A stretch of DNA of 64,000 nt from positions 1 to 64,000 of the IMG/VR virus record IMGVR_UViG_3300031787_010495. The stretch is one strand, 5' to 3'. The first letter of the stretch is position 1; each line of letters starts with the position of its first letter. Below are positions 41,459 to 54,352 of the stretch, piece after piece. Made by a program: the position numbers and the translations under genes. Source of the stretch: a virus. The notes beneath the pieces are model-generated. The model did no database searches. It was not told where the DNA came from and worked only from the letters and a program-made list of their open reading frames with translations.

Positions 41459-41771
41459 AATAAAAGAATTGGTTGTCTATTGCCGCTTTATAATCTTGTA
41501 ATGATGGTATCAATGGAAATGGAATACTCAAAATTGCACCATCGAAAATATTATTTTCTAAACCCCCAAACTGAGGGTTGGCTTGTAATATCAACCAACC
41601 AAAAAATGGTGAGTTGTAATATTCTTGTGAGACTCTATCTAACCTACTTCTACCAACTTTATAAATGTAAGCCTTATCGGTTGGTTTTGAAGGCAATTGA
41701 ACATAAGGGACAACTGTTTGTTCTCCATTAATGATAAATTGACTATATCTATTCCAATATGGATACGCCAT
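41448..41771 (-). CDS. LysM-like baseplate protein (gp53 / gpX type)
   Basis: This protein of 107 residues has a LysM-like pattern, RLDRVSQEYYNSPFFGWLILQAN followed by NIFDGAILSIPFPL. It is seen in small baseplate proteins such as P2 gpX and the wedge protein gp53 of T4-like phages. These bind between hub or wedge parts or touch peptidoglycan. It overlaps the hub-like gene by 11 nt and follows the 1673-aa gene in a TAATG overlap, so its dose is coupled to both. Confidence 0.75.
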   Translation of the reverse strand: MAYPYWNRYSQFIINGEQTVVPYVQLPSKPTDKAYIYKVGRSRLDRVSQEYYNSPFFGWLILQANPQFGGLENNIFDGAILSIPFPLIPSLQDYKAAIDNQFFYYGR

Positions 41772-44700
41772 TAGTTAAGTTTTGCTTTAGATATTAATGC
41801 CCCTGAAATGTCATCATTCCAAGTGGCTTGGTCGTTCGAGCTGTTTGTTTGTGCAGCCAAACTTTTAATCCAAGATTTTTCAAGGTCGAACAAACTTGGG
41901 TCAGGAAACACGTTTTCCGTTGAAAATCCAAGGATTCTATTCTTTTTGGGGAATGGTGTATAGATTAAGAAATCTTTCAACTCATTCTTAGCCACACTAT
42001 CCAAGAATCCTTTAGTTATGTTATTTTCCTCAATATATAAAGGTTTGGATTTTACAATCCAAAAGTCGTCAAAAATCTTACTAACGTCGGCTGTTGAATC
42101 TCCTATGAGTGCAGTGTTATTAATAACGTCTCCGATAATTGATTGTTTGAATGTTTGATATTTCTTGTCATCCAAAATGTCATCAGAGAATATCATATAT
42201 TGTCTTTTGAAATTACCGTTTGTGAACTCATCCTTTTTTGAAAAAGGTTCAAACACTACGTCGGTTGAAGGTGCTCCGTCTGCAATTCCATTCTCAGTTT
42301 TATAAACCATAACACCATCATAAGTTAAATTGTCTTGAGAATAAACAAAAGAATTTGTCGCCCAAATAATATCATTAAATTCTGAAATATTATCTCTCAC
42401 TTTTTGTAAATCAATCACCAACTCATCCAAGGTATCAGTTGCAGAAGTGGATGAAACATCTACTTCAGATAATCCTGATATTTCATAAACCGTCACATCA
42501 CCTTTCGCTGATTGGAATCCATCGAAAGCAAAACCAGTCGTATAATCATAAGTAATTATGTTGGCTCTTGACCAACTTTGAATATATTGTGTCTCCAGTG
42601 TAACCAACTCTTGTGTTATTTGGGTTACGGCATTTTGGAAAACACCCCTCTTGTTTTTAATAACATTTGAATAGTTTGTCTTAATTGCATTTATTACTCT
42701 TGGAGTCAGATTTTTTGTGGTATCTGAAATGAAGTTGATAAATTGGTCATCATCATTTGTAATGTCTTCCTCCAAATTAGCAAATATCTGATTGAATCTG
42801 TTCTCAACATTATTTGGTTTTCCAAAAATGTATATTGATACTGGTGCGGTATCCACAGATGTTCCTCCGTATGTATAATTTCTCTCAGCCATCCATTGTT
42901 GCCTTACCGCGTTATTATACTGAGATGTGATTGTAATTTGTTTGTTAACAACATTTTGAAAATAAGTTTGAGTTTGATTGACAAAATTTACCATGAAATC
43001 AGAATATGAAATAGTTCCGTTTTCACCAAAAGGTTGATTCGTTCTGTTTAGAATACTACCGATTGTTTGGTTATTATTTTGTCCATTATTTGGTGCCGCT
43101 TGATTAGCTGCAGGTGGTTTTGGTGGAACCGCCATTGCCAGAAACTCGTCATCTAAGACTTTCAAGAAATCCTCTTGTGCTGTAACATCGGCTCTGTCAT
43201 CATATATCTCAGTATTCGCATAATAATTGAATGTCAAAGCGTTTTGTAATCTATCAACAGATTCTTTTAGACCGCTACCCCCAACGAACTTGAAATTCAA
43301 ACTAACATTTGCAATCATTGGTTGAACCCCTATACCCTCAGGATTTATGTCCAACTCCTCATATTGTAATGATAAACTCTCAGGTATGATTTTGGTATTA
43401 TAAAAATCACCAATTCTCAAAACTAAAACTGGAGGTGCTCCAAATGTTGTGTTTACAGCATTGTTGTATTGTAACACAGGTGAACCATTGACTTCTTTGA
43501 TTGTAGGAATTGTGTCACCAGGTCTCATACACTGTTGTAAGAATGTTAACCTCGAGTTTAATCCCTCTGGTGTCATTGAGTGGAATGCCGGTGTGAAGAA
43601 CTTTAGTTTGTCTTTTAGGTTGTCAAAAACCATAGGTGTTTCTGCCTTTATTGTCTCAAAGTAATCACACTCAGATAGAAGGGACCTAATAACCCTTTTA
43701 GTAATGTTATCTCTTCTTCTCCATTCTCTTGAAATCTCCTCTGTCTCAGTTGTTGTTACAACTGTATTAGACACTAATACATCGGTATATTGAGGTGTGG
43801 GAACTGGTTCAGGGGTGTTGTCGGTGGTATTATCTATGATATTATAGATATAAGCCCTCCTACAGGCCATTGCTCCTGGTGTGAAAACATCTTTAGCTTG
43901 AACTTGTATATCTCCACCCACAACGCTACTATCGGTGTCAGTGCAATTATATGAGTTTCCCAAATTTTTAACAGATAAATCATATGGTTCAGGTCCTTCA
44001 AACTTTCTTGGTTGAGAAATGAAAGATTCTCCAAACCCTTTACCAGCTTGAACTAATAATCTCCCTTCACTAACGTATTGGGACAATTTAGGGTTTTTAT
44101 TGAAAAATAATTGAGCAGACTCAATTCTTCTTTTTGATAACTCTACGTTATAACTTTGTGTTTGTGGTGCGGAACAACTTGAGTCAATTACGATTGTAAT
44201 AGACCCTTTAGTTTGTTTTAATTTTGCAACTAAATCATCAATTAGTTTTTGAGCAACTTTAAAGTTAGTATCTACAACAACATCGAAAAAACTTTTTGTA
44301 TCTGCACTTGTGTCATACTTTGCACGTTGACCATCATATATCAGTTTCTGCTGGTCATATCCTGTAACGTCCCCTTTTTTTGGATAATCATTTGCGAAAT
44401 ACAAACCAACATCTTTATATTTTAATAGTTCACTTTCAGTGGGTCCAGGTTGACTGATGTCTTGACCTTGTCCACCATCAACCCCTGTTTGAATCTCAAG
44501 TTTAGACCATTCAATTTGTTCTCTTGTCAACTTCTTTGAGGTAATAGCTTCTTGTAATTGATACAAGTCATTCGGATTGATTGTGTAATACTTCTTAGCT
44601 AATTCATATAAATCGTATTTCCTACATCCCGCAAAGAATGAATCTATAATACTATTAACTCTTGTTCTATTGGTTTCATTTGCAAGAACCTTGTTGACTA

Positions 44701-46792
44701 TAACATTCAAAACTGAAGGATGGTCAACAACTATCTTCCAAGCCAAAGTCCCACCTCTACTTGTTGACTTATATGTATATATTGGCTCTGGTCTACCAAG
44801 GAACTCACTAGTGTTCCATGACGCAGATACGTTTTCATTAAAGGTAAGTCCATAAGGTGGGAACCACATAACCCTTCCTCCATTAGGTCCTCTCTCACAA
44901 ACAGGTAAATCAGAGACTGATGCTCCTGGTGTAGAAGAGGTTCTCCAAGCAAGATTTTCCAATGAGAACATGTATTTTTTTGCAAATGCGGTATTTGTAG
45001 TTCCTATTAAATTTGTAGAACTTTGACCACCTTCTTGTTTGTTTGGAGCAATGTTCAAATTATATGTGTTATCTAAAACTGAATCTACAAATCTTCTTCC
45101 ATTAATTGTTATACCATCTACCTTTTGTAAATCATTATATTGAAGATATGGAGTATCCTTAGCAAAAACTCTACAATATTCTGTTCCAACTTCCTGTCCT
45201 ACAGCCCCTTCGTATCTATAAACTCTAGAACCCTTTGTCATTTCTTTATATCCGTCGTTGAAAACTTTGGATACTTGGTCTATGGCATTACCTACGTGTT
45301 GTAATCTTTTTCCTCCTTGTGGTTGACTGTCTATTAATCTTTGAGTGTCATCAAGAATTGAACCCTCTCTAAATCTTCTTTCAGTTGATTCTGTTGAGTT
45401 ATAGGATGATGGTCTGAAATCTTCATCTTCTCTTGTCACCTCCCCACCAAGACCCACTCTCTTACCAGCATTTCCCTTGTATTTCGGTGAAACCCAAGTA
45501 AACCCACCTTCGATACCACCACCGTCACTATACGTTGGTCCATTAGCACCTAATTTTACATCTTGACTAGGTCCTTCATAAAGTTGAGCTAACTCAGTTG
45601 GTCCAAAAACAGGAGATTGTTGGACTACCCCAAACTCATTTACGGGTAATGCACCCGCAGGAGAAAAGACTTGTGATGGTTCTGATGTTCTTGAACCAAC
45701 ATAATAGTTACTATTGTCTGATAAACCACCAACAATTGCACCAGCGGCTCTGTCCAAGAAAGTTCTTTCGTAGTTCGGTTTGAATTTGTTAAAATCGATG
45801 TTGGCGAAAAGTCTAGACTTTTGTCCTCCACCTGTGTTATTAAGGAAGAGTTGAGAACCTGATTGAGGGGCACCTAAAAGTCTATTGAAAAAGTTTCCAA
45901 CAGCACTTCTTCTAAATGCATTCTGTAGTTGTTGTATTGTTGTTGGCTGTCCTGAATTTATTGATGGGTCCCAATAAGAACCTGGGATTGGGGATACAGG
46001 TAATATACTTCCAGCAAGTCTGAGCGCAAAATCTGTTGCGGCTAATATTGGGTTACTTGGGGTTGTAATAGTCCAGTTTGGTTCCAACAATGGAACTCTT
46101 CCTGTTATTAAATTCAAAACATCGTTCCCGCTGTCAACATTGAATAGATTTACTCTACCTAATGTATTTTGTCTTATTTGTGCAGCAATTCTTTCCTCAA
46201 AAGATTTCCTCAAGGTTTGAGCTCCCAACTTGGCAATGAAGGAATCTTGACTCAATAACCCATTACTACCCAGTGGGTCTTTGGTTAATAGAATAGTAAC
46301 AGGTCCATATAATGAAGGGACGAATGTTGTCGGGTAGGGTTGATTATTATATAATCTTGTTCCACCTATAACAAAATTAGGTTCAGTAATATATTCCCCA
46401 CTGTCTAACAGAGCTTCAGAACCATTTGAATATGCGTTAACCGTTTTCCATCTCAACGATTCAGGTTCGGCCTGACCAAGTAATCTTGCATCTTGTTGAC
46501 CTGGTCCATATTCTCCTTGATTTGACTTCGTATTAAGTAATCCTGTCGGGTCTGGTGCTTGTTTATATCCACCGTCTGACCCCCATTGGTTGAGAGGGTA
46601 GAGTCTGTTAGCAAAACTAGGTTCATCAATAAGTTGGTCTGGACTGTCTTGAACAGAAGAATCGCTTTGGATATATTCCGTGTCTATCGGTTGTGACGGT
46701 CTATTAGGAGCCTTAGCATATGGTGTAAGGTTCCTTGTGAGTAACTTTTTTCTGAATCCTGAGGAAGATGAAAATTCTAATAAACTCGCCAT
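41771..46792 (-). CDS. Large tail/baseplate protein with OmpA-like domain
   Basis: ATG 46792 gives 1673 residues; one codon upstream there is only TTG. At about 615-700 there is GGRVMWFPPYGLTFNENVSAS...GRPEPIYTYKSTSRGG, and at about 1120-1200 VLVLRIGDFYNTKIIPESLSL plus ISLNFKFVGG-like strands. Together these resemble tube-initiator/tail-cap proteins (gp48/gp54 or XkdP-like). Between them, at about 835-930, is an OmpA-like segment (ITIVIDSSCSAPQTQ, then LSKRRIESAQLFF and GKGFGES), a fold that binds peptidoglycan. A cap or baseplate protein able to hold the cell wall is inferred. The first 600 residues look like a low-complexity, Gly/Asn-rich scaffold. Confidence 0.68.
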   Translation of the reverse strand: MASLLEFSSSSGFRKKLLTRNLTPYAKAPNRPSQPIDTEYIQSDSSVQDSPDQLIDEPSFANRLYPLNQWGSDGGYKQAPDPTGLLNTKSNQGEYGPGQQDARLLGQAEPESLRWKTVNAYSNGSEALLDSGEYITEPNFVIGGTRLYNNQPYPTTFVPSLYGPVTILLTKDPLGSNGLLSQDSFIAKLGAQTLRKSFEERIAAQIRQNTLGRVNLFNVDSGNDVLNLITGRVPLLEPNWTITTPSNPILAATDFALRLAGSILPVSPIPGSYWDPSINSGQPTTIQQLQNAFRRSAVGNFFNRLLGAPQSGSQLFLNNTGGGQKSRLFANIDFNKFKPNYERTFLDRAAGAIVGGLSDNSNYYVGSRTSEPSQVFSPAGALPVNEFGVVQQSPVFGPTELAQLYEGPSQDVKLGANGPTYSDGGGIEGGFTWVSPKYKGNAGKRVGLGGEVTREDEDFRPSSYNSTESTERRFREGSILDDTQRLIDSQPQGGKRLQHVGNAIDQVSKVFNDGYKEMTKGSRVYRYEGAVGQEVGTEYCRVFAKDTPYLQYNDLQKVDGITINGRRFVDSVLDNTYNLNIAPNKQEGGQSSTNLIGTTNTAFAKKYMFSLENLAWRTSSTPGASVSDLPVCERGPNGGRVMWFPPYGLTFNENVSASWNTSEFLGRPEPIYTYKSTSRGGTLAWKIVVDHPSVLNVIVNKVLANETNRTRVNSIIDSFFAGCRKYDLYELAKKYYTINPNDLYQLQEAITSKKLTREQIEWSKLEIQTGVDGGQGQDISQPGPTESELLKYKDVGLYFANDYPKKGDVTGYDQQKLIYDGQRAKYDTSADTKSFFDVVVDTNFKVAQKLIDDLVAKLKQTKGSITIVIDSSCSAPQTQSYNVELSKRRIESAQLFFNKNPKLSQYVSEGRLLVQAGKGFGESFISQPRKFEGPEPYDLSVKNLGNSYNCTDTDSSVVGGDIQVQAKDVFTPGAMACRRAYIYNIIDNTTDNTPEPVPTPQYTDVLVSNTVVTTTETEEISREWRRRDNITKRVIRSLLSECDYFETIKAETPMVFDNLKDKLKFFTPAFHSMTPEGLNSRLTFLQQCMRPGDTIPTIKEVNGSPVLQYNNAVNTTFGAPPVLVLRIGDFYNTKIIPESLSLQYEELDINPEGIGVQPMIANVSLNFKFVGGSGLKESVDRLQNALTFNYYANTEIYDDRADVTAQEDFLKVLDDEFLAMAVPPKPPAANQAAPNNGQNNNQTIGSILNRTNQPFGENGTISYSDFMVNFVNQTQTYFQNVVNKQITITSQYNNAVRQQWMAERNYTYGGTSVDTAPVSIYIFGKPNNVENRFNQIFANLEEDITNDDDQFINFISDTTKNLTPRVINAIKTNYSNVIKNKRGVFQNAVTQITQELVTLETQYIQSWSRANIITYDYTTGFAFDGFQSAKGDVTVYEISGLSEVDVSSTSATDTLDELVIDLQKVRDNISEFNDIIWATNSFVYSQDNLTYDGVMVYKTENGIADGAPSTDVVFEPFSKKDEFTNGNFKRQYMIFSDDILDDKKYQTFKQSIIGDVINNTALIGDSTADVSKIFDDFWIVKSKPLYIEENNITKGFLDSVAKNELKDFLIYTPFPKKNRILGFSTENVFPDPSLFDLEKSWIKSLAAQTNSSNDQATWNDDISGALISKAKLN

Positions 46793-46804
46793 CAATTATT
46801 TTTC

Positions 46805-46828: not shown

Positions 46829-48679
46829 TTATTTGGCTTTGGCTATACCAGATGCTGTTGAAGGATTCTTTTGGCTAACCTGAACCATATAATTTTGGAC
46901 CCCAATTTCTCTAAATTTATCACTTAAAATTTTAACTATCTCTTGTTTTTGCGTTTCGTTTAAGGTTTGGTTTCCTTGGATGTTCAAATCAACTTTCAAT
47001 ACACCAAACTCCACTTTTGAATTTACCTGTGTCCCATAAGGAATCTTACCTTCTTTGGCTAAAGATTCTGCTTTTTTCGAAGCGTCATTCAAAATTTCAG
47101 CTTGTTTACTTGCCTTTGTGTTAGTTGTTTCTTGACCAAGAACTTTACCGAGCACCCACGAACCAGCAGCTTCAACTTTATTATCTGTATTGAGTTTGTT
47201 TTTTGATTTTTCTAAAGCACTTTTTATTGCTTTATTCAAATCATTTTTTATATCATCAAGTTCAGTTCCAAAACTTGCCATGTATTTTTGGATAACCGAC
47301 AACTTATTTGTGTTTGGGTCTGCTAATTCATCAACAATACTTCCCATACCCGACATGAATTTTTGAACCTTTTCTCTAACTTCTTTTGTTCCACCTATAT
47401 CCGAAAGTTCACCACCAATTGTAGAGATAACATTTCTTGCACCCTCAAATCCTCTTAAGACAGGAGAAGCAGAGGCAAGTCCACCAACCAACTTATTTCT
47501 TATTGCAGATACGTCAGCCTCAATTGACTCCGTATAATTCATTTGACTTCTAACCAAATCCTCTAAAGTTTTTGGTCCTTTTTTTTGTTCCTGTATCAAT
47601 TTGTCAAATTCTGTTTGAGTAACTTGTGAAAGTTCTTTTGTAATATACTCACCAGACTTTTCATCTTTGATTTTTACTTCATAGGTCCCCTCACTCGTCA
47701 TTGTGGCTATGTTAGCTAAGTATTGTTTGTCCTCTTCACTTGCAATAGAAAGACCTGCAGCACTTACCGCAGATAATCTCCTGTCCAATTCTAAAGCAGC
47801 TAAAGACATTTCTCTAAGTTCTTTAGCACTCATTTGAGTTTGATTTGCAATCTCATTAATTGTCAGAACTCCCTGTGGATTGATTTTGAATGTTTTAGTT
47901 TCCTCATCGAAATAAGAAAACTGTTTTGTCATTTGGGCTAAACTATCTTGTAAACCTGATGGGTCGTTGATGGATTGATTCATCAGTTGAAAAGGGTCAA
48001 CTAAGTTTCCTACGGAAACACCTAATCTTTGGAATGCTGATGCTACTTGAATTGCACCCTCAGGGCTCAGAACCTTTTCCGCCAATTGAAAAGTTTGGTT
48101 CATGTCAAACCTTAACATTGAGGCTTGTGCTGCCATTTTTGTTAAACCTTTCACACCACCCTCAAACTGATAACGGTTGAGTTGGTCCATGTTTGCAGTC
48201 ATGTCTTTGACAACCTCAGCAGCGTTTCCTCCTATACTTTGAACATACTGTATTGATGACTCTAAATTCTTTCCAATGTCTTTCACAGACATACCAACAT
48301 TCATGAAACTGTTGGTAAGACTCTCTGCACTCAGGTCTAGAATTTTATTTGCAGCATATAACTTTTCGATTTGTTCTTGTGTTGCCAACACATTCCTGTT
48401 TGCCGCTTTGGCAACTCCTTCGATTGCACTACTAACATCTTGAACTGAACCTCCAAGTCTAAGAACGTCAGGAACTGAATCCGCAACTGCCTGCTGAAGT
48501 TCAACTACTCTTTGTCTTCCTTGGGTGAATACCTTATTGATATCGGTTGAGGCCTGACTCAATCTTGTGACCGCTGAAGCAAAGTCTTCTACACCAATAT
48601 CTAAAAGCGATTTTATCCTTGCGGCAAATCCTTCTGGTGTTGTTTCCCCGCCTATTTGTCCTCCGTAATCTGCTTGCAT
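46829..48679 (-). CDS. Tape-measure-like tail protein
   Basis: This protein of 616 residues is close in length to T4 gp29 (590). It is predominantly helical, rich in Ala, Ser, Gln and Lys, with long heptad-like stretches (SQASTDINKVFTQGRQRVVE, IKNDLNKAIKSALEKSKNKL) and a small beta C-terminal domain. It lies next to the gp26-like gene with its overlapping second frame, exactly where tape-measure genes sit relative to tail chaperones. The helical composition and position support a length ruler inside the tail tube. No strong TM segment is apparent. Assignment is by size, composition and context. Confidence 0.68.
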   Translation of the reverse strand: MQADYGGQIGGETTPEGFAARIKSLLDIGVEDFASAVTRLSQASTDINKVFTQGRQRVVELQQAVADSVPDVLRLGGSVQDVSSAIEGVAKAANRNVLATQEQIEKLYAANKILDLSAESLTNSFMNVGMSVKDIGKNLESSIQYVQSIGGNAAEVVKDMTANMDQLNRYQFEGGVKGLTKMAAQASMLRFDMNQTFQLAEKVLSPEGAIQVASAFQRLGVSVGNLVDPFQLMNQSINDPSGLQDSLAQMTKQFSYFDEETKTFKINPQGVLTINEIANQTQMSAKELREMSLAALELDRRLSAVSAAGLSIASEEDKQYLANIATMTSEGTYEVKIKDEKSGEYITKELSQVTQTEFDKLIQEQKKGPKTLEDLVRSQMNYTESIEADVSAIRNKLVGGLASASPVLRGFEGARNVISTIGGELSDIGGTKEVREKVQKFMSGMGSIVDELADPNTNKLSVIQKYMASFGTELDDIKNDLNKAIKSALEKSKNKLNTDNKVEAAGSWVLGKVLGQETTNTKASKQAEILNDASKKAESLAKEGKIPYGTQVNSKVEFGVLKVDLNIQGNQTLNETQKQEIVKILSDKFREIGVQNYMVQVSQKNPSTASGIAKAK

Positions 48680-48702: not shown

Positions 48703-48703
48703 C

Positions 48704-48729
48704 AAAAGGACTGATTTTTCAGTCCTTTT
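48704..48729. terminator. Stem-loop terminator between chaperone frame and tape measure
   Basis: AAAAGGACTGA and TCAGTCCTTTT form an 11-bp stem with a TTTT loop and A/T-rich flanks. The stop codon of the overlapping small reading frame lies inside the stem, which supports that frame being translated to this point. Confidence 0.8.
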
Positions 48730-48904
48730 GATTTTCTTCAACCCATTTATCCAAAATATATCTTCTCACAAAAAGAGGCATTTTTTCAAAATCGGTCCAA
48801 CTTATATTCAACAATCTATTCAAATAATAGAATTCATCAATTTGACCTTTCCTATAATCCGAAGAAAGGGCGAAAAAATTCAACCCCAAAACCAACGTTG
48901 ACTG
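48719..48904 (-). CDS. Overlapping small frame, likely frameshift extension of the gp26-like protein
   Basis: This open frame has 61 sense codons and no ATG that could start the conserved-looking part. It begins after a TAA at 48905-48907 and overlaps the last codons of the gp26-like gene in a different frame. It continues to a stop within the terminator hairpin. The product part ALSSDYRKGQIDEFYYLNRL followed by NISWTDFEKMPLFVRRYILD is amphipathic, charged and protein-like. It is reached from the gp26-like frame by a +1 or -2 shift. The layout matches phage tail chaperone pairs (lambda G/GT, Mu -2 shift) upstream of the tape measure. Alternatives are a separate gene started at a TTG codon, or a sequencing error in T6. 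Confidence 0.6.
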   Translation of the reverse strand, partial: QSTLVLGLNFFALSSDYRKGQIDEFYYLNRLLNISWTDFEKMPLFVRRYILDKWVEENQKD

Positions 48905-49601
48905 TTAGTCTTTCTCCTGATGGGGCTATTACTTCTCTTCTCAAATCCAATTTAGGTTCATTTTCATCCATGAACTTACGAATATACTTGGAGTCCATAA
49001 TTGGCATTTGTTCTACAAACTTGGCAATTTCCGCTCTGTCACTAGTTCCATTTACCTCAACAATTTCTTTATTAAGCCTGAGAGTAACTTTTGGTGCAAC
49101 TCTCCCTTGGGGATATGTATCTATGATTTTTTGTATTTCGTTTATCTCACCATATGTAATAGGTTTGAGTTTGACTGTTGAATTTGATTTTGGTAAAGTA
49201 GTGATAAAAGTTCCGTCTTCATTTGGTTTTTGTCCTTTATTTACATTCAATTCGTCCAATACAATTGTCGCAGGAAAAGTCTTTTTGGTTTGTGGGTCGG
49301 TAAGGTTTAAGTTCATCTCTGGTCCAAAACCTGTGTTTCTTAAAAATACTAAAATAGCTTCCACATCTCCTTCCAATAAATCATCAATCCTCATGTCAGG
49401 TTCGTATAATTTATTTCTCAAAAGATTAGTGGTAATATCCAATCCACCAGCCATAAGAATGTTTTCATCAGCTGCGGTCAGATAACCAACCTTCACAGAT
49501 TTCTTTTTATTCTTGTAAAATACCCCTTCAGATGGTAAGGGCACGATATCGTGAGGTAATGTTAAATTACTCTGTGCATAATTTCTTGTTTGTTCATCCA
49601 T
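48852..49601 (-). CDS. Baseplate hub / tail assembly protein, gp26-like
   Basis: This protein of 249 residues has an N-terminal LPHDIVPLPSEGVFYKNKKK segment and YLTAADENILMAGGLD, then RIDDLLEGDVEAILVFLRNTG. These match the T4 gp26-type baseplate protein pattern (LPS.G..Y.....V..LTA.DE..L). The C-terminal part includes MDSKYIRKFMDENEPKLDLR. In T4, gp26 is needed for hub assembly; related proteins in other phages are viewed as tape-measure chaperones. It ends with a Phe-rich RPFFGL just after a T6 run where the second frame opens. It starts directly after a terminator hairpin and T10 run, so its own start of transcription must lie within or before the hairpin. Confidence 0.75.
   Translation of the reverse strand: MDEQTRNYAQSNLTLPHDIVPLPSEGVFYKNKKKSVKVGYLTAADENILMAGGLDITTNLLRNKLYEPDMRIDDLLEGDVEAILVFLRNTGFGPEMNLNLTDPQTKKTFPATIVLDELNVNKGQKPNEDGTFITTLPKSNSTVKLKPITYGEINEIQKIIDTYPQGRVAPKVTLRLNKEIVEVNGTSDRAEIAKFVEQMPIMDSKYIRKFMDENEPKLDLRREVIAPSGERLTVNVGFGVEFFRPFFGL
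48873..48878 (-). promoter_or_regulatory. Candidate frameshift site (T6 run)
   Basis: The coding strand reads GAA TTT TTT CGC in the gp26-like frame. Reading on from the two Phe codons with a -2 slip, or skipping one base (+1), enters the long overlapping frame (TTC GCC or GCC CTT). The zero frame stops only 6 codons later at 48852-48854. Confidence 0.45.
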
Positions 49602-49610
49602 AAAAAAAAA

Positions 49611-49636
49611 ATAACCGTAGAGTTTATGTCTACGGT
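49611..49636 (-). terminator. Rho-independent terminator after the tail tube gene
   Basis: ACCGTAGA and TCTACGGT form an 8-bp stem with a 7-nt loop (CATAAAC), followed on the transcribed strand by a run of ten T at 49602-49611. The T-run directly precedes the ATG of the gp26-like gene. Confidence 0.88.
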
Positions 49637-49671
49637 TAAATATAATTAGAAACGATTTTTTATAAAGAGTA

Positions 49672-50160
49672 TTAGTAAACTAACACACATCTATCCATTC
49701 TCAATCCACAAGTAATATCTGCAAGAGCGTCCTGACTGTAAGACAGACTTCCGAAGTTTGCACTTGTTAGGAAGGTTCCATAGAGAATCCATTTTTCTAC
49801 CACCACCCCTGTTGGGTCCAACATCTCAAGGTCAATATCTTTTTTATAACCCGCTGCGTAACCCATACGACCTGTTACCGACTCAGCGTGTAGACGAACC
49901 CATTCCATAAGTGCTTGTGCAGCTGAAGGACCAATTGGGTCTCTAAATTTTACCTGAATTTCATCCCAGTTAAATCTACCTGCAACAAATGTTGAAGTGT
50001 TTAAGAATTGAATTTCAGTTGAGTTTATCTTGATAGATGGTCTTGAAGCAGACTCCACGAACCACTCATTAATACCTAAACTTGACGGAAACCTTAGAAT
50101 GAATCGATTCTGACGTTTCGGTTCGTAAGGTATGGGCATTTTCATCAGTAAATCAGCCAT
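49672..50160 (-). CDS. Tail tube protein, gp19-like
   Basis: This protein of 162 residues equals the length of T4 gp19 (163). Patterns include RQNRFILRFPSSLGINEWFV at the N-terminus, SRPSIK, FNWDEIQVKFRDPIGPSAAQ, and a C-terminal LTSANFGSLSYSQDALADIT. These are typical of T4-type tube monomers. It forms the inner tube through which DNA passes. Own terminator downstream and TATTTATA motif 33 nt upstream fit strong separate expression of this abundant protein. Confidence 0.92.
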   Translation of the reverse strand: MADLLMKMPIPYEPKRQNRFILRFPSSLGINEWFVESASRPSIKINSTEIQFLNTSTFVAGRFNWDEIQVKFRDPIGPSAAQALMEWVRLHAESVTGRMGYAAGYKKDIDLEMLDPTGVVVEKWILYGTFLTSANFGSLSYSQDALADITCGLRMDRCVLVY

Positions 50161-50252: not shown

Positions 50253-51083
50253 TTATTGCACTTCCTTCTTAGTTCCTCCAGCAGTAGAATATGTTTTAAC
50301 TAAATTATCTGGTTTATCTTTAAAGGCTTTTCTCATTACTTCTACATTTCTTGGGTCATCGTCTGAAAAACCAATTGATGGTTTAGATGGTGTAAATTTG
50401 TTTCCTATGTCGTTTTTTAACCATGCTCTTTTATTAAGTAATGCTGCCATATTCTTAATGTAGTCCACAAAATCATTCATCGCTCTAACCTTCGCCTCCT
50501 CGGGATTTGTGGCACCCGACTCATCTCCAAAAGAAACGGGATGGTATTTGTTTAAATCCAAATAAAGGTCGATAAGTTCTTTATCAGATAAATCTTCTTC
50601 ACCTGTAAAGTTCCTATATTTTTTTAAATTTTTGATTAGTTCATCTTTGGATATCCCGCCGAAATCATTTACAATATAATTGTAGACGGATTGTTTCAGG
50701 GTTTCGGGATTATGACCCCTTGCAGTGATTATTGCAAATATTGAACCATTATTTATTGCTTCTCTAAAGTCATCAAAAGCTGGTCCCTTCTTTGCTTGCA
50801 TAGAATCAATCAAAAAGTCTTTGTCTCCTTCAGTTCGAAAGTTTCTAAACGGATTGTCACCGAACCCAACAATCTTATGTCCGTTATATTCAAAATCTTC
50901 TTTTCCTACAATGTGTCGGTATTCTGCAAAATCTTCGGTTGACATACCTACCTCTTCTCCGTCTGAATCTTTCAGAATTATCTTTGTCGGCATGTGCACA
51001 ATATTGTCATCCCAGTCGAAAGCGTAATATTTTAAATCCGGGGTTTTCTCGTCTTTGAAACCTTCTGTAATCTCTTTTCTCAT
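50253..51083 (-). CDS. HAD-superfamily hydrolase-like protein
   Basis: This protein of 276 residues carries HAD phosphatase motifs: motif I AFDWDDNIVH (D23, D25), motif II FAIITARGHN, and motif IV-like GFSDDDPRN near residue 245. A long helical insertion lies between motifs II and IV. These enzymes remove phosphate from proteins, nucleotides or DNA ends. A HAD gene between sheath and tube genes is odd. It may act in virion assembly, or be packaged, or simply be a transplanted metabolic gene. It starts shortly after the sheath terminator and no motif for its own promoter is obvious. Confidence 0.78.
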   Translation of the reverse strand: MRKEITEGFKDEKTPDLKYYAFDWDDNIVHMPTKIILKDSDGEEVGMSTEDFAEYRHIVGKEDFEYNGHKIVGFGDNPFRNFRTEGDKDFLIDSMQAKKGPAFDDFREAINNGSIFAIITARGHNPETLKQSVYNYIVNDFGGISKDELIKNLKKYRNFTGEEDLSDKELIDLYLDLNKYHPVSFGDESGATNPEEAKVRAMNDFVDYIKNMAALLNKRAWLKNDIGNKFTPSKPSIGFSDDDPRNVEVMRKAFKDKPDNLVKTYSTAGGTKKEVQ

Positions 51084-51127: not shown

Positions 51128-54100
51128 TTAGATATTTTCGAACGAAGCTCCTGTTGGTGTAATAAAGAATTCAATATCTATGAATTCGAGAGCCTTCGTT
51201 GGTTTTAAGTAAATCTTTCCTGTTAATGTGTTTCTGTCTAAATCTTCAGGTGAAGAAGATACTGTCACACGGAAATCATATAGACCTCTATCTCTTCTAA
51301 TTGAATCAAGGATTGGGTTCACACTATCCAAGAATTGTTGTCTTACTACTTGGTCGTTCTGTTCGAACAGTAATCTTACAGCCACCGCTGAAATTAACTT
51401 ACGAGCCTGAAGTAACAATCTTCTTACGTTAAGTCTGTTTAGAGCGGTATCCGCAACCTGTAGGGTTTTGTTACCCCAAATTACAGTTCCAACGTCCGCA
51501 AAAGTTGCAATAGGGTTGATTCTTCCTTGATAAAGAGTATCTCTATCCTCTTGAGTCAACTTCAATCTTGCCTTTATTGAATTTACAAGACCTCTTGTGT
51601 AACCCGCTGACGCGAACCATGGGAAGGATATGTTATCTGTAAGAGCTAAATTTCTACAAACTTCACCTGTTGGTGGTAAGTAAATCTGTGTATTGTTTAC
51701 TGTATCTCTCACCAAAATCCAAGGATAGTAAGTAGATGTATAGTTAGAATCAATTCCTGTGTTATCTAAGTTATCAACCGCTTCCTGAGGATAAATAATA
51801 TCCAAAGAGTTTGTTCCATCAGGAGTATACATGTTATAATCTGGTGTCGTTGCTATATAAACAGAATCAGCCCTTTGGAACTGAATCATGTCGATAGCTT
51901 CTTCAACAAGGTTTGAGTTATTGTAATAATCGATACTTGAAGTTGCAAATACATTGATATTAGTAGCTTCAGGATTTCTGAACGTAAGAATACCTAATAG
52001 ATAAGCATAATAGTCAGTGTTAGCAAAATCTTGTGTATTGTTTTCAACCACAATTCTCTTAAATAAACCTTGACCAGTTGCTGAAGGATATCTTGATGAT
52101 GCAGATGCACCCGCCAAGTAACCTGATGCTCCCAATTGGAATCTATCTTGGTTTGTTCTATATTCTCTATAAATGTCCCAACCATCAAACCCACCAGCGA
52201 AACATACTGTGTATTTTCTTGAGTAGATAAAGTAGTAAGGATTTTCTTGTGTTTCTGGGTCAAATCTGAAATCAGCAACCCCACACTCAAATGCCGGTGT
52301 TCCACTTGTTTGATAAACATTACCAATAGTAACTACAGTTGCACCTGAGTCCATATGGAAACCTTTACTTAAGTAGTTCCAAGTAGCACCCTCGACAGGG
52401 ATTGGAGCAATGACCCAAGAAGGTGGATTTTGTTTACCTTTATAAGAAAGGAATGATTCGTCAATTCCGAACTGAGTTGAAAAACCTAAGTAACTTCTTC
52501 TCACTATATCACCAGGTGACTCGACTAAATTATCACCTCCAGTTGCTGCACCGAAAGGTGGGTTATAGATAACTTCACCAGGGAAGTAGTATTTTGTTTT
52601 GAACTTTGGAACAGGAGATGGATTACTAACAGATGCATATTCTCTTTGAGTGTATCCGTAGAATCCACAAGGAAGTGCATCTATTGGTGCCTCTTCAGAC
52701 ATTTCAACCATCACATATTTTGATATTAAAGCAAACTCACCATTAGAAGAACCAATCTTTTTAGCCACAAAGTTATTTGAAGCTGGGTCCATAGTGCAAT
52801 TTGTGAATTTCTCAATCACAACAGGGTTCGCATCGGTGTCAAAGAAATTTCTAACTAAAACATCAAATGTCATGTTGTTAAAAGACAAGTTCGCGATTGA
52901 AACTTTTACTTCAACGTTAGCTGCATCTCCATCAGAGATTGATATGAATCTGAATAATTTATAAACTTTATTACCTCTCAACTCTGAAACCAAGAATGGT
53001 GTCATAGGTGATTGATATTTTTCTACGTTATAAGCAATTGAACTTGGGTCTTCTGTTCTTGCTCCAGGTAAACCAATCAACTGACAATCTAATCCACGGA
53101 TATAACTTTGATTATAAGCATAAGCCAAAGAAGCTGGATAAACTTCCTCAACGAATACAGGAACCTCCTGTCTAGATTTTCCGAAATTGTCCGTCCCTAA
53201 TACTTTAGTTATAAACTTAGAAGAAAGTGCCGACAATGAAACTTCAAAACTGAAATTATCATTATCTTTCGTTATACCTGATAACAAGAAGGTTTCGTAA
53301 GGATTAATTGTAACCCCTGAGTATTGTCCCGAACAAACCATAGTTAATGCACTCAATCCTGAAACAGTTCCACCCGAGTTTACCTCGTAAATTGGACCGT
53401 GAGCATTACTTGCTGCACTATTTTCAAAAAGTGATATACCTCTTGAACGGATTGTCGCTACAACCATGTTATTATATTCACTGAAAGCAGTTCCTGACCA
53501 TGTATATACATTACCAGAAATACTACCCGAGAAACTATTAGAAGCTCCTGTTGCTATTGATGAAACAATATAGTCCATAGAATAACCTGAATAGTTATCA
53601 TTGGAATAGTTGTTAAAGTTTGCATAGAACCAAGAATCATTCAAACCACTTGTTAAATCATTAAGAGGATAATTTATATTATCACAATTATATACGTTGA
53701 CTAAGTTACGTCCTGTAGACAAACTATAATAGTCACTTTCTGGAATTGCACCATATACATTTGCAGTTGTTGAAGACAATGAATTTGTTGTTAGAACATC
53801 TTTCACAAACCCTAAAATATCGGATTGGATATTAGATGTGCTTCCGTCACTCATTCTATAAAGTGAAGTCAACGAATTGTTAATTTGTGAAGGGAATGAA
53901 TTAAGAAAAGAAATTGTATTCCCTGTCGAACTTCCTGTAAAGTTTACCACCCAAGGGGTAGCTGTTGCAGGATTGAAACCAACCGTAGTTGGGTCAACAT
54001 TAGCAACAACTTTGATACTCCAAGACGGACCTGCGTCGTATCCTGAAAGACCAAGGATTCTTGTTACGAACAATTGATTAGATTGTTGTAAGTAAGATTT

Positions 54101-54352
54101 GGCAATGTAAGCCGCTTCATATTTAGGGATTTGTGTATTAACAAATTTTACAGGCTCGGACCCCCCGAAATATGCCTGAAATTCATCGTAGTTCGTTATA
54201 AAAATCGGTTCAAATGCGGGACCCTTAATTGTTTCCCCAACTAAACCTAACGTAGTAACACCCACACTCTGAGCCACGAATGATAAATCCGTTTCAGAGG
54301 TATAAACACCAGGTGAAACATAAACTTTTTGATTTGCTTGTGCTGTTGCCAT
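51128..54352 (-). CDS. Tail sheath protein, gp18-like
   Basis: The N-terminus KVYVSPGVYTSETDLSFVAQ and VGVTTLGLVGETIKGPAFEP is the classic contractile sheath start. The C-terminal region (LTQEDRDTLYQGRINPIATF, QVADTALNRLNVRRLL, LTGKIYLKPTKALEFIDIEF) is the conserved sheath domain that engages the tube and neighbouring subunits. At 1074 residues it is well above T4 gp18 (659). The extra mass is a Ser/Asn/Tyr-rich region at about 110-440, likely an outward-facing decoration. It heads its transcript (motif 32 nt upstream) and has its own strong terminator. Confidence 0.93.
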   Translation of the reverse strand: MATAQANQKVYVSPGVYTSETDLSFVAQSVGVTTLGLVGETIKGPAFEPIFITNYDEFQAYFGGSEPVKFVNTQIPKYEAAYIAKSYLQQSNQLFVTRILGLSGYDAGPSWSIKVVANVDPTTVGFNPATATPWVVNFTGSSTGNTISFLNSFPSQINNSLTSLYRMSDGSTSNIQSDILGFVKDVLTTNSLSSTTANVYGAIPESDYYSLSTGRNLVNVYNCDNINYPLNDLTSGLNDSWFYANFNNYSNDNYSGYSMDYIVSSIATGASNSFSGSISGNVYTWSGTAFSEYNNMVVATIRSRGISLFENSAASNAHGPIYEVNSGGTVSGLSALTMVCSGQYSGVTINPYETFLLSGITKDNDNFSFEVSLSALSSKFITKVLGTDNFGKSRQEVPVFVEEVYPASLAYAYNQSYIRGLDCQLIGLPGARTEDPSSIAYNVEKYQSPMTPFLVSELRGNKVYKLFRFISISDGDAANVEVKVSIANLSFNNMTFDVLVRNFFDTDANPVVIEKFTNCTMDPASNNFVAKKIGSSNGEFALISKYVMVEMSEEAPIDALPCGFYGYTQREYASVSNPSPVPKFKTKYYFPGEVIYNPPFGAATGGDNLVESPGDIVRRSYLGFSTQFGIDESFLSYKGKQNPPSWVIAPIPVEGATWNYLSKGFHMDSGATVVTIGNVYQTSGTPAFECGVADFRFDPETQENPYYFIYSRKYTVCFAGGFDGWDIYREYRTNQDRFQLGASGYLAGASASSRYPSATGQGLFKRIVVENNTQDFANTDYYAYLLGILTFRNPEATNINVFATSSIDYYNNSNLVEEAIDMIQFQRADSVYIATTPDYNMYTPDGTNSLDIIYPQEAVDNLDNTGIDSNYTSTYYPWILVRDTVNNTQIYLPPTGEVCRNLALTDNISFPWFASAGYTRGLVNSIKARLKLTQEDRDTLYQGRINPIATFADVGTVIWGNKTLQVADTALNRLNVRRLLLQARKLISAVAVRLLFEQNDQVVRQQFLDSVNPILDSIRRDRGLYDFRVTVSSSPEDLDRNTLTGKIYLKPTKALEFIDIEFFITPTGASFENI

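Follow-up and report, generated by a model that had tools for sequence, protein, structure and literature searches.

A large T4-related phage very probably makes its tail assembly chaperone in two forms, the rarer and longer of which would arise when ribosomes slip by +1 at a UUU_CGN site close to the end of the gp26-like gene. The DNA analysed, hereafter the window, comprises positions 1-64,000 of the IMG/VR record IMGVR_UViG_3300031787_010495, whose total length is 105,599 bases. Both overlapping frames of the chaperone locus are under selection, the slip site is conserved, and the product belongs to the family of T4 gp26 and gp51.

The gp26-like zero frame (48852..49601, minus strand, 249 aa) is proposed to encode the short form of the chaperone (TAC-N). 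Read on the minus strand, its 3' end is GGG GTT GAA TTT TTT CGC CCT TTC TTC GGA TTA TAG, with the TAG stop at 48854-48852, six codons past the TTT TTT pair. A second frame overlaps this end and, counted from 48904, has 61 sense codons up to a TGA at 48721-48719. The portion past the shift (48719..48871, minus strand), which is predicted to encode the gp51-type C-terminal domain (TAC-C), consists of 50 codons and this TGA. Its sole ATG, at 48781, comes late in the frame and is preceded by TTG codons. The codons of the second frame begin one base after those of the gp26-like frame, so that entry would be by +1 (or -2), and its stop is contained in a terminator-like hairpin (48703..48730, minus strand) with a 12-pair stem and an A/T-rich tail. 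A second terminator-like hairpin (49612..49638, minus strand), followed by T10, separates the tail tube gene from the gp26-like gene. The gp26-like gene and the second frame are thus flanked by two such hairpins and may have their own transcript. The original prediction, made from the letters alone, had described this layout with a stop six codons after the T run, 61 sense codons, a second stop inside the hairpin and an offset of +1 or -2, and its coordinates, codon counts and offset are all correct.

The genes around the locus are arranged in the order sheath, tube, gp26-like gene and next large ORF. The tail sheath protein (51128..54352, minus strand) was recognized by phrog_23 (E 7.8e-55) and PF17482 (E 4.5e-7), and the gp19-like tail tube protein (49672..50160, minus strand) by phrog_4542 (E 1.1e-25); both lie upstream of the gp26-like gene. 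The next large ORF (46829..48679, minus strand, 616 aa) is a tape-measure candidate by position, as Pfam, PHROGs and the clade comparison gave no sequence match to any annotated tape measure. A homologue of this ORF is the next ORF in 92 of the 93 window-clade loci that hold a next ORF (96 loci in total). The large gene after the chaperone locus of Flavobacterium phage immuto is annotated as a tape measure. The locus is therefore located between the tail tube gene and the positional tape measure gene, which is the location of G/GT-type chaperone genes.

Some features of the neighbouring genes can be noted in their own right. The sheath gene encodes 1074 aa, and its best sheath-family matches span only residues 851-1072 or so, implying a very large N-terminal or inserted part in the sheath protein. 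Between the tail tube and sheath genes is an ORF of 276 aa (50253-51083, minus strand) with no Pfam match up to E 1, the start of which resembles, on visual inspection, a HAD phosphatase. The tape-measure candidate is followed by an ORF of 1674 aa (41771-46795, minus strand) in which an OmpA-like match, weak at E 0.044, spans 848-915.

Conservation of the locus was assessed in relatives from an IMG/VR scan, which gave 328 confirmed relatives; the best 80 were kept, ten of them identical to the window in the gp26-like protein, with contigs as long as 321 kb. Together with the window's own record, the second frame is present at the identical offset in 81/81 loci. The window clade, taken as all junctions for which the window was the best query, comprises 96 distinct junctions at 40-100% identity. 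The original prediction had regarded a sequencing or assembly error in the T6 run, splitting one intact gene, as the chief alternative. No support for it was found among the relatives: the same two frames recur in 81/81 loci and at 96/96 distinct junctions, every one with TTT_CGN, a single intact frame occurs in 0/96 window-clade junctions, and the +1 layout is also present in the isolates SP-15, GXN1, LIS04 and Flavobacterium phage immuto. As the same offset is kept in 81/81 loci, an indel error is ruled out and its probability is negligible.

The second frame evolves as a protein. Past the slip site, the +1 frame is open for 45-63 codons to its own stop in all 96 window-clade junctions, none of which is truncated by a contig end, and shuffled versions of these 96 stretches stay open in a median of 0.75% of shuffles (maximum 5%). 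From seven codons past the slip onwards, pN/pS is 0.37 in the second frame, versus 1.28 in the continued zero frame and 1.06 in the third frame, these values being raw proportions without saturation correction; the gp26-like protein itself has a pN/pS of 0.26 (47 sequences). The 60 sequences used for the three frames share the commonest length, that is, an equal distance to the next +1 stop. The absence of +1 stops among them is thus by construction, and openness was for this reason counted on all 96. In the same 60 sequences, the zero and third frames past the slip contain on average 4.8 and 4.9 stops, respectively, and are open in 0/60 cases in either. In the window clade, no relative thus has a single intact frame, and the second frame is neither interrupted by stops nor unconserved (81/81, 96/96, pN/pS 0.37). 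With the offset kept in 81/81 loci, TTT_CGN and an open second frame in 96/96 junctions and the pN/pS of 0.37, the proposal of a tail-chaperone frameshift resembling G/GT is supported.

The proposed +1 slip site, UUU_CGC (48870..48875, minus strand), places UUU (48875-48873) in the P site and CGC (48872-48870) in the A site. TTT_CGN is found in 96/96 distinct window-clade junctions, with CGT in 38, CGC in 36, CGG in 20 and CGA in 2, and the codon ahead of the slip TTT is TTT in 91/96 and TTC in 5/96. When the junctions are grouped at 75% identity, TTT and CGN are each kept in 45/45 clusters (CGC 14, CGT 15, CGG 14, CGA 2), CGC or CGG being used in 28/45. These codons are very rare elsewhere. 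Among the 615 arginine codons of the 29 window ORFs of at least 200 aa, CGN accounts for 10.7%, and CGC and CGG together for 10/615, the CGC of the site included; in the gp26-like genes upstream of the junction, CGC and CGG make up 4/874 arginine codons. No tRNA genes bearing on arginine codon choice were found within the 64-kb window. In an alignment of 49 distinct sequences, the wobble positions of the zero frame vary up to the codon CGY and hardly thereafter. Given the C after UUU and the rare A-site codons, the site appears to have been chosen for these features, as a +1 P-site slip from UUU to UUC would favour. A single copy of the extended slip pattern TTYTTTCGNNCTTTCTWY is present in the whole record of 105,599 bases, and the reversed pattern is absent. 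The second frame would thus be joined to the first, near the end of the latter, by a conserved zero-frame UUU_CGN with a rare CGN and a +1 offset, as in known UUU_CGN sites and at the position seen in G/GT-type genes. A canonical -1 heptamer of the X_XXY_YYZ type does not account for the window clade, in which the conserved frame is +1 in 96/96 junctions.

Two other ways of changing frame would act on the T run itself. The original prediction had left entry by +1 or by -2 side by side. A -2 slippage, such as that used for the tail chaperone of Mu, would be conceivable on TTT TTT, where both tRNAs could re-pair as the prediction had pointed out. Five of the 96, however, read TTC TTT CGN, so that tRNA-Phe would land on UCU; the +1 half of the prediction is preferred because -2 pairing is lost at these five. 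The invariant C of CGN, which a +1 slip needs, and the rare codons are moreover unexplained by -2 slippage, which is very unlikely. A T6 run, present in 91/96 junctions, could also invite slippage of RNA polymerase, yielding mRNAs of altered length. Six T are short for such slippage, the run is broken (TTCTTT) in 5/96 and CGN is again unexplained, which makes this origin exceedingly improbable. A +1 slip at UUU_CGN would account for both the invariant C and the rare codons.

Upstream of the slip site, a GGGG (48884..48887, minus strand) is separated from it by a spacer of 8 nt and could be a Shine-Dalgarno-like stimulator or a pause element. The glycine codon GGG that precedes the slip TTT by four codons is conserved in 93/96 window-clade junctions and in 42/45 clusters; in the stretch of these gp26-like genes ahead of the junction, GGG represents 126/1286 glycine codons. 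The GGGG may pause the ribosome. The +1 site of E. coli RF2 has a short spacing, unlike the 8 nt found here. No clear downstream RNA structure was found in the 29 of 96 sequences folded (mean z -0.59 and -0.79), and upstream the value was -1.37 (30 sequences); given these weak folding scores, no pseudoknot or stem is claimed.

The second frame could also be a small separate gp51-like gene, starting within the end of the gp26-like gene and translated with no frameshift. An ATG lies upstream of the slip or just past it in 48/96 window-clade junctions, mostly eight codons before the slip, and ATG, GTG or TTG, counted to five codons past the slip, are present in 84/96. The remaining 12/96 have none of the three, 48/96 lack an ATG, and an SD-like 4-mer precedes the ATG in only 4 of the 48 junctions that have one, which counts for little if the host ignores such sites. 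Separate coding does exist in the wider family: two members of a different branch, L304 and L310, carry the domain as an ORF with its own ATG, and the annotations of Bellamy, P-SSM2 and KVP40 include a short gp51 gene apart from gp26. Yet even where gp51 is annotated apart, the -1 frame is open from a T_TTT_TTC into it, and the invariant TTT_CGN with the rarest arginine codons would be left unexplained by an independent start. A separate gene is therefore unlikely in the window clade.

The best-supported mechanism is a ribosome held up at a rare CGN codon while UUU occupies the P site. Most ribosomes would read the gp26-like frame to the TAG and release the short form. A minority would pause at UUU_CGC because CGC is a very rare arginine codon in this genome, and while CGN waits, the P-site tRNA-Phe would re-pair one base forward, from UUU to UUC. 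Reading on in the +1 frame would add about 50 gp51-type residues to give a long form of 293 aa. If the pair works as G and GT do in lambda, the short form may coat the tape measure, and the extra domain of the long form may recruit tail tube subunits. The occurrence of the shift, its rate and the roles of both forms are what we infer here for this phage.

Membership of the gp26/gp51 family is established by the first domain. The gp26-like frame matches PF12322 (E 1.2e-7; 32 bits against a cut-off of 24.5) and, alone, covers positions 8-232 of the 282 of phrog_150 (E 4.3e-13, 50.3 bits). The +1 fusion of the window extends this match to 8-280 of 282 (58.7 bits). Five of seven fusions compared with phrog_150 reach at least position 271, and the other two end at 252 and 237; PF12322 gains nothing from the fusion (31.3 versus 32 bits). 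The second frame alone gave no Pfam or PHROGs match at the thresholds used, with one weak PHROGs row at E 0.3. By the extended phrog_150 match, the hidden second frame corresponds to the gp51-type C-terminal domain. An AlphaFold2 model of the plain gp26-like frame, built with 36 sequences, has a mean pLDDT of 86.6 and a pTM of 0.81. Foldseek returned no match under E 0.001 against the PDB, the chaperone rows lying above E 1, and a sequence search of solved structures had no match up to E 1. In a second structural comparison with the PDB, the top rows scored modestly, YqbN at Z 5.7 over 83 residues and the tail assembly chaperone of HK97 at Z 5.1 over 93, followed by ORF19 of a PICI-like element (Z 4.4) and others at 2.8 or less; for the model, these modest rows are in line with a chaperone. 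Among viral predicted structures, 54 matches under E 0.001 were found, some of them named 'baseplate hub subunit' (SP-15) and 'baseplate hub assembly proteins' (T4-like).

Comparison with more distant phages was based on five more IMG/VR scans, two of which gave the best 80 of 443 and the best 80 of 590. Another of the five, for Xanthomonas-type relatives, found none. The resulting survey holds 315 sequences including the window, 308 with a complete zero frame and 7 cut off, and 257 distinct junctions; its proportions follow the choice of queries and are not natural frequencies. By second-frame profile and inspection of the atypical rows, 155 of these junctions were classed as +1, 94 as -1, 2 as separate ORFs (L304 and L310) and 6 were unclassified, among them T4. 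In the other five unclassified rows (L183, L188, L192, L195 and L202), both TTT_CGT and an open +1 frame are present; the three of them included in the tree described below were treated as +1. The 155 +1 sites are TTT_CGN (108), TTT_TGN (28), TTT_TAN (8), TTT_CTN (2), TTT_CAN (2), TTT_AGN (1) and six others, namely TTT_CGG at a more upstream position in two (L189 and L190) and CCC_AGT in four. The latter four (L199, L201, L203 and L208), of SP-15 or LIS04 type, lack a TTT site, and CCC_AGT would be their +1 site. The -1 rows have, in register, T_TTT_TTC (89) or T_TTT_TTT (4), a register-free pattern counting 90 T_TTT_TTC; L087 is -1 with its heptamer upstream of the searched span. The octamer TTTTTTCG is shared by the two classes, occurring in 101/155 +1 rows, where it always reads TTT TTT CG, and in 83/94 -1 rows, where it always reads T TTT TTC G.

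Among named phages and records, the +1 layout is found in Flavobacterium phage immuto, LR756508, Streptococcus phage GXN1 (with TTT_CGT), Bacillus phage SP-15, Listeria phage LIS04 and Microcystis phage Mel-JY01, and the -1 layout in XacN1, RAS14, LR756511, Atu_ph07, PA5oct, Bellamy, P-SSM2 and KVP40. The records of Bellamy, P-SSM2 and KVP40 place a short 'baseplate hub assembly catalyst' gene after an annotated gp26. In all three, a T_TTT_TTC stands just ahead of the stop of gp26, and an open -1 frame leads into the short gene, which the KVP40 record notes as similar to the C-terminus of T4 gp51. The records LR756508 and LR756511 are without annotation. In the annotated records that were read (L091, which is Mel-JY01, L094, L095, L096 and others), the second frame is missing, labelled hypothetical or entered as a 'baseplate hub assembly catalyst' gene of its own, and none has a joined CDS. 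Where the public records read give gp26 alone, or gp26 and a short separate gene, the annotation could be corrected.

The +1 and -1 phages appear, from profile comparisons, to reach a homologous gp51-type domain. A +1 second-frame profile built from 9 seeds, the window excluded, was aligned by hhalign with a -1 profile from 8 seeds at a probability of 96.5 (P 9.6e-10, 46 columns). In cross-searches of 316 alternate-frame peptides at E below 1e-3, the +1 profile finds 61 -1 peptides and the -1 profile finds 93 +1 peptides. In a tree of 64 gp26-like proteins, without L304 and T4 gp26, the direction of the shift needs two changes, and 0/200 bootstrap trees have one; an AU test did not reject a single -1 clade (p 0.275), so that at least one change of direction is shown. 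A quicker tree including L304 and T4 gp26 has three direction changes. In L304 and L310, the gp51-type domain is a separate ORF with its own ATG directly after the gp26-like stop, and as L304 is nested among +1 relatives in the quicker tree, the shift seems to have been lost there.

On balance it seems probable that a broad branch of the T4 superfamily makes its long chaperone by a +1 shift at UUU, mostly UUU_CGN, that the ratio of the two forms is set in the window clade by the rarest arginine codons, and that the direction flipped within the family at the same Phe-Phe codons. Isolates of this +1 branch grow on Flavobacterium, Bacillus, Listeria, Streptococcus and Microcystis, and many members are uncultured. 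One orthologous chaperone gene is thus served by apparent +1 and -1 shifts, by separate ORFs (L304 and L310) and by two related genes (T4), and such variety within one family makes it possible to test whether selection maintains the pair of products and not the mode of producing them. The phage also offers a bacterial setting for UUU_CGN, in which codon effects can be tested in laboratory strains.

Among the closest known systems is that of T4 itself. When T4 gp26 and gp51 are compared as a pair by BLASTP, they show weak similarity (E 1.7e-6). T4 gp51 spans positions 13-280 of the 282 of phrog_150, the same layout as the fusion, and from residue 147 on it matches phrog_634, the family of cyanophage-type short gp51; the direct match of the second-frame profiles to the T4 gp51 C-terminus alone is weak, the PHROGs match of gp51 being the clearer one. 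These matches fit T4 gp26 being the short and gp51 the long chaperone form, separately encoded. T4 and the window phage thus share the family (PF12322, phrog_150) and the two-part product, with the difference that T4 uses two genes whereas the window phage has one gene, an overlapping frame and an apparent +1 shift. Vladimirov, Gautam and Davidson reportedly described T4 gp26 and gp51 as short and long chaperone forms encoded by separate genes in 2022. Passages of two later papers credit Vladimirov 2022, one with poly-T -1 signals in T4-like TAC-N genes (PMC12846349) and the other with the short and long chaperone gene as two copies (PMC10885494). A frameshifted gp26/gp51 pair, which the original prediction had considered new for T4-like phages, is therefore already in print, and open -1 frames follow T_TTT_TTC in cyanophages and KVP40. 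The +1 UUU_CGN site and the change of direction within the family are apparently new; the open-access literature, which leaves most subscription papers outside, gave no report of a +1 UUU_CGN site in a phage among the matches listed, and this is weak evidence of novelty.

In lambda G/GT, as set out in passages of a review (Atkins 2016, PMC5009743), a -1 shift near the end of the first frame of the tape-measure-assembly chaperone gene adds a C-terminal domain; the same passages name T4 as an exception to the conservation of the chaperone frameshift. The window locus is alike in gene arrangement and differs in direction, +1 here and -1 in lambda. That source also mentions +1 sites of Listeria phage PSA (CCC_UGA and CCC_UCC) and a likely +1 shift in a tail gene of HSTV-2, which are, as here, +1 shifts in phage structural or tail genes. 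The sites of PSA are proline codons, which the CCC_AGT of the four SP-15 or LIS04 type rows resembles. The slip site itself has its counterpart in plant amalgaviruses and influenza PA-X, where, according to parts of PMC5052127, tRNA-Phe re-pairs to UUC at a UUU_CGN +1 motif whose CGN is called rare, all four CGN codons are used, and it is doubted that tRNA supply alone explains the motif; the same motif in PA-X and amalgaviruses is also described in PMC3498833. The codon pair, the putative re-pairing, the use of all four CGN codons and the rarity of CGN are the same in the window clade. Whereas amalgaviruses and influenza are eukaryotic RNA viruses, the site is found here in a bacterial DNA phage, in another gene and with a conserved upstream GGGG, and the likeness is one of convergence, with no kinship.
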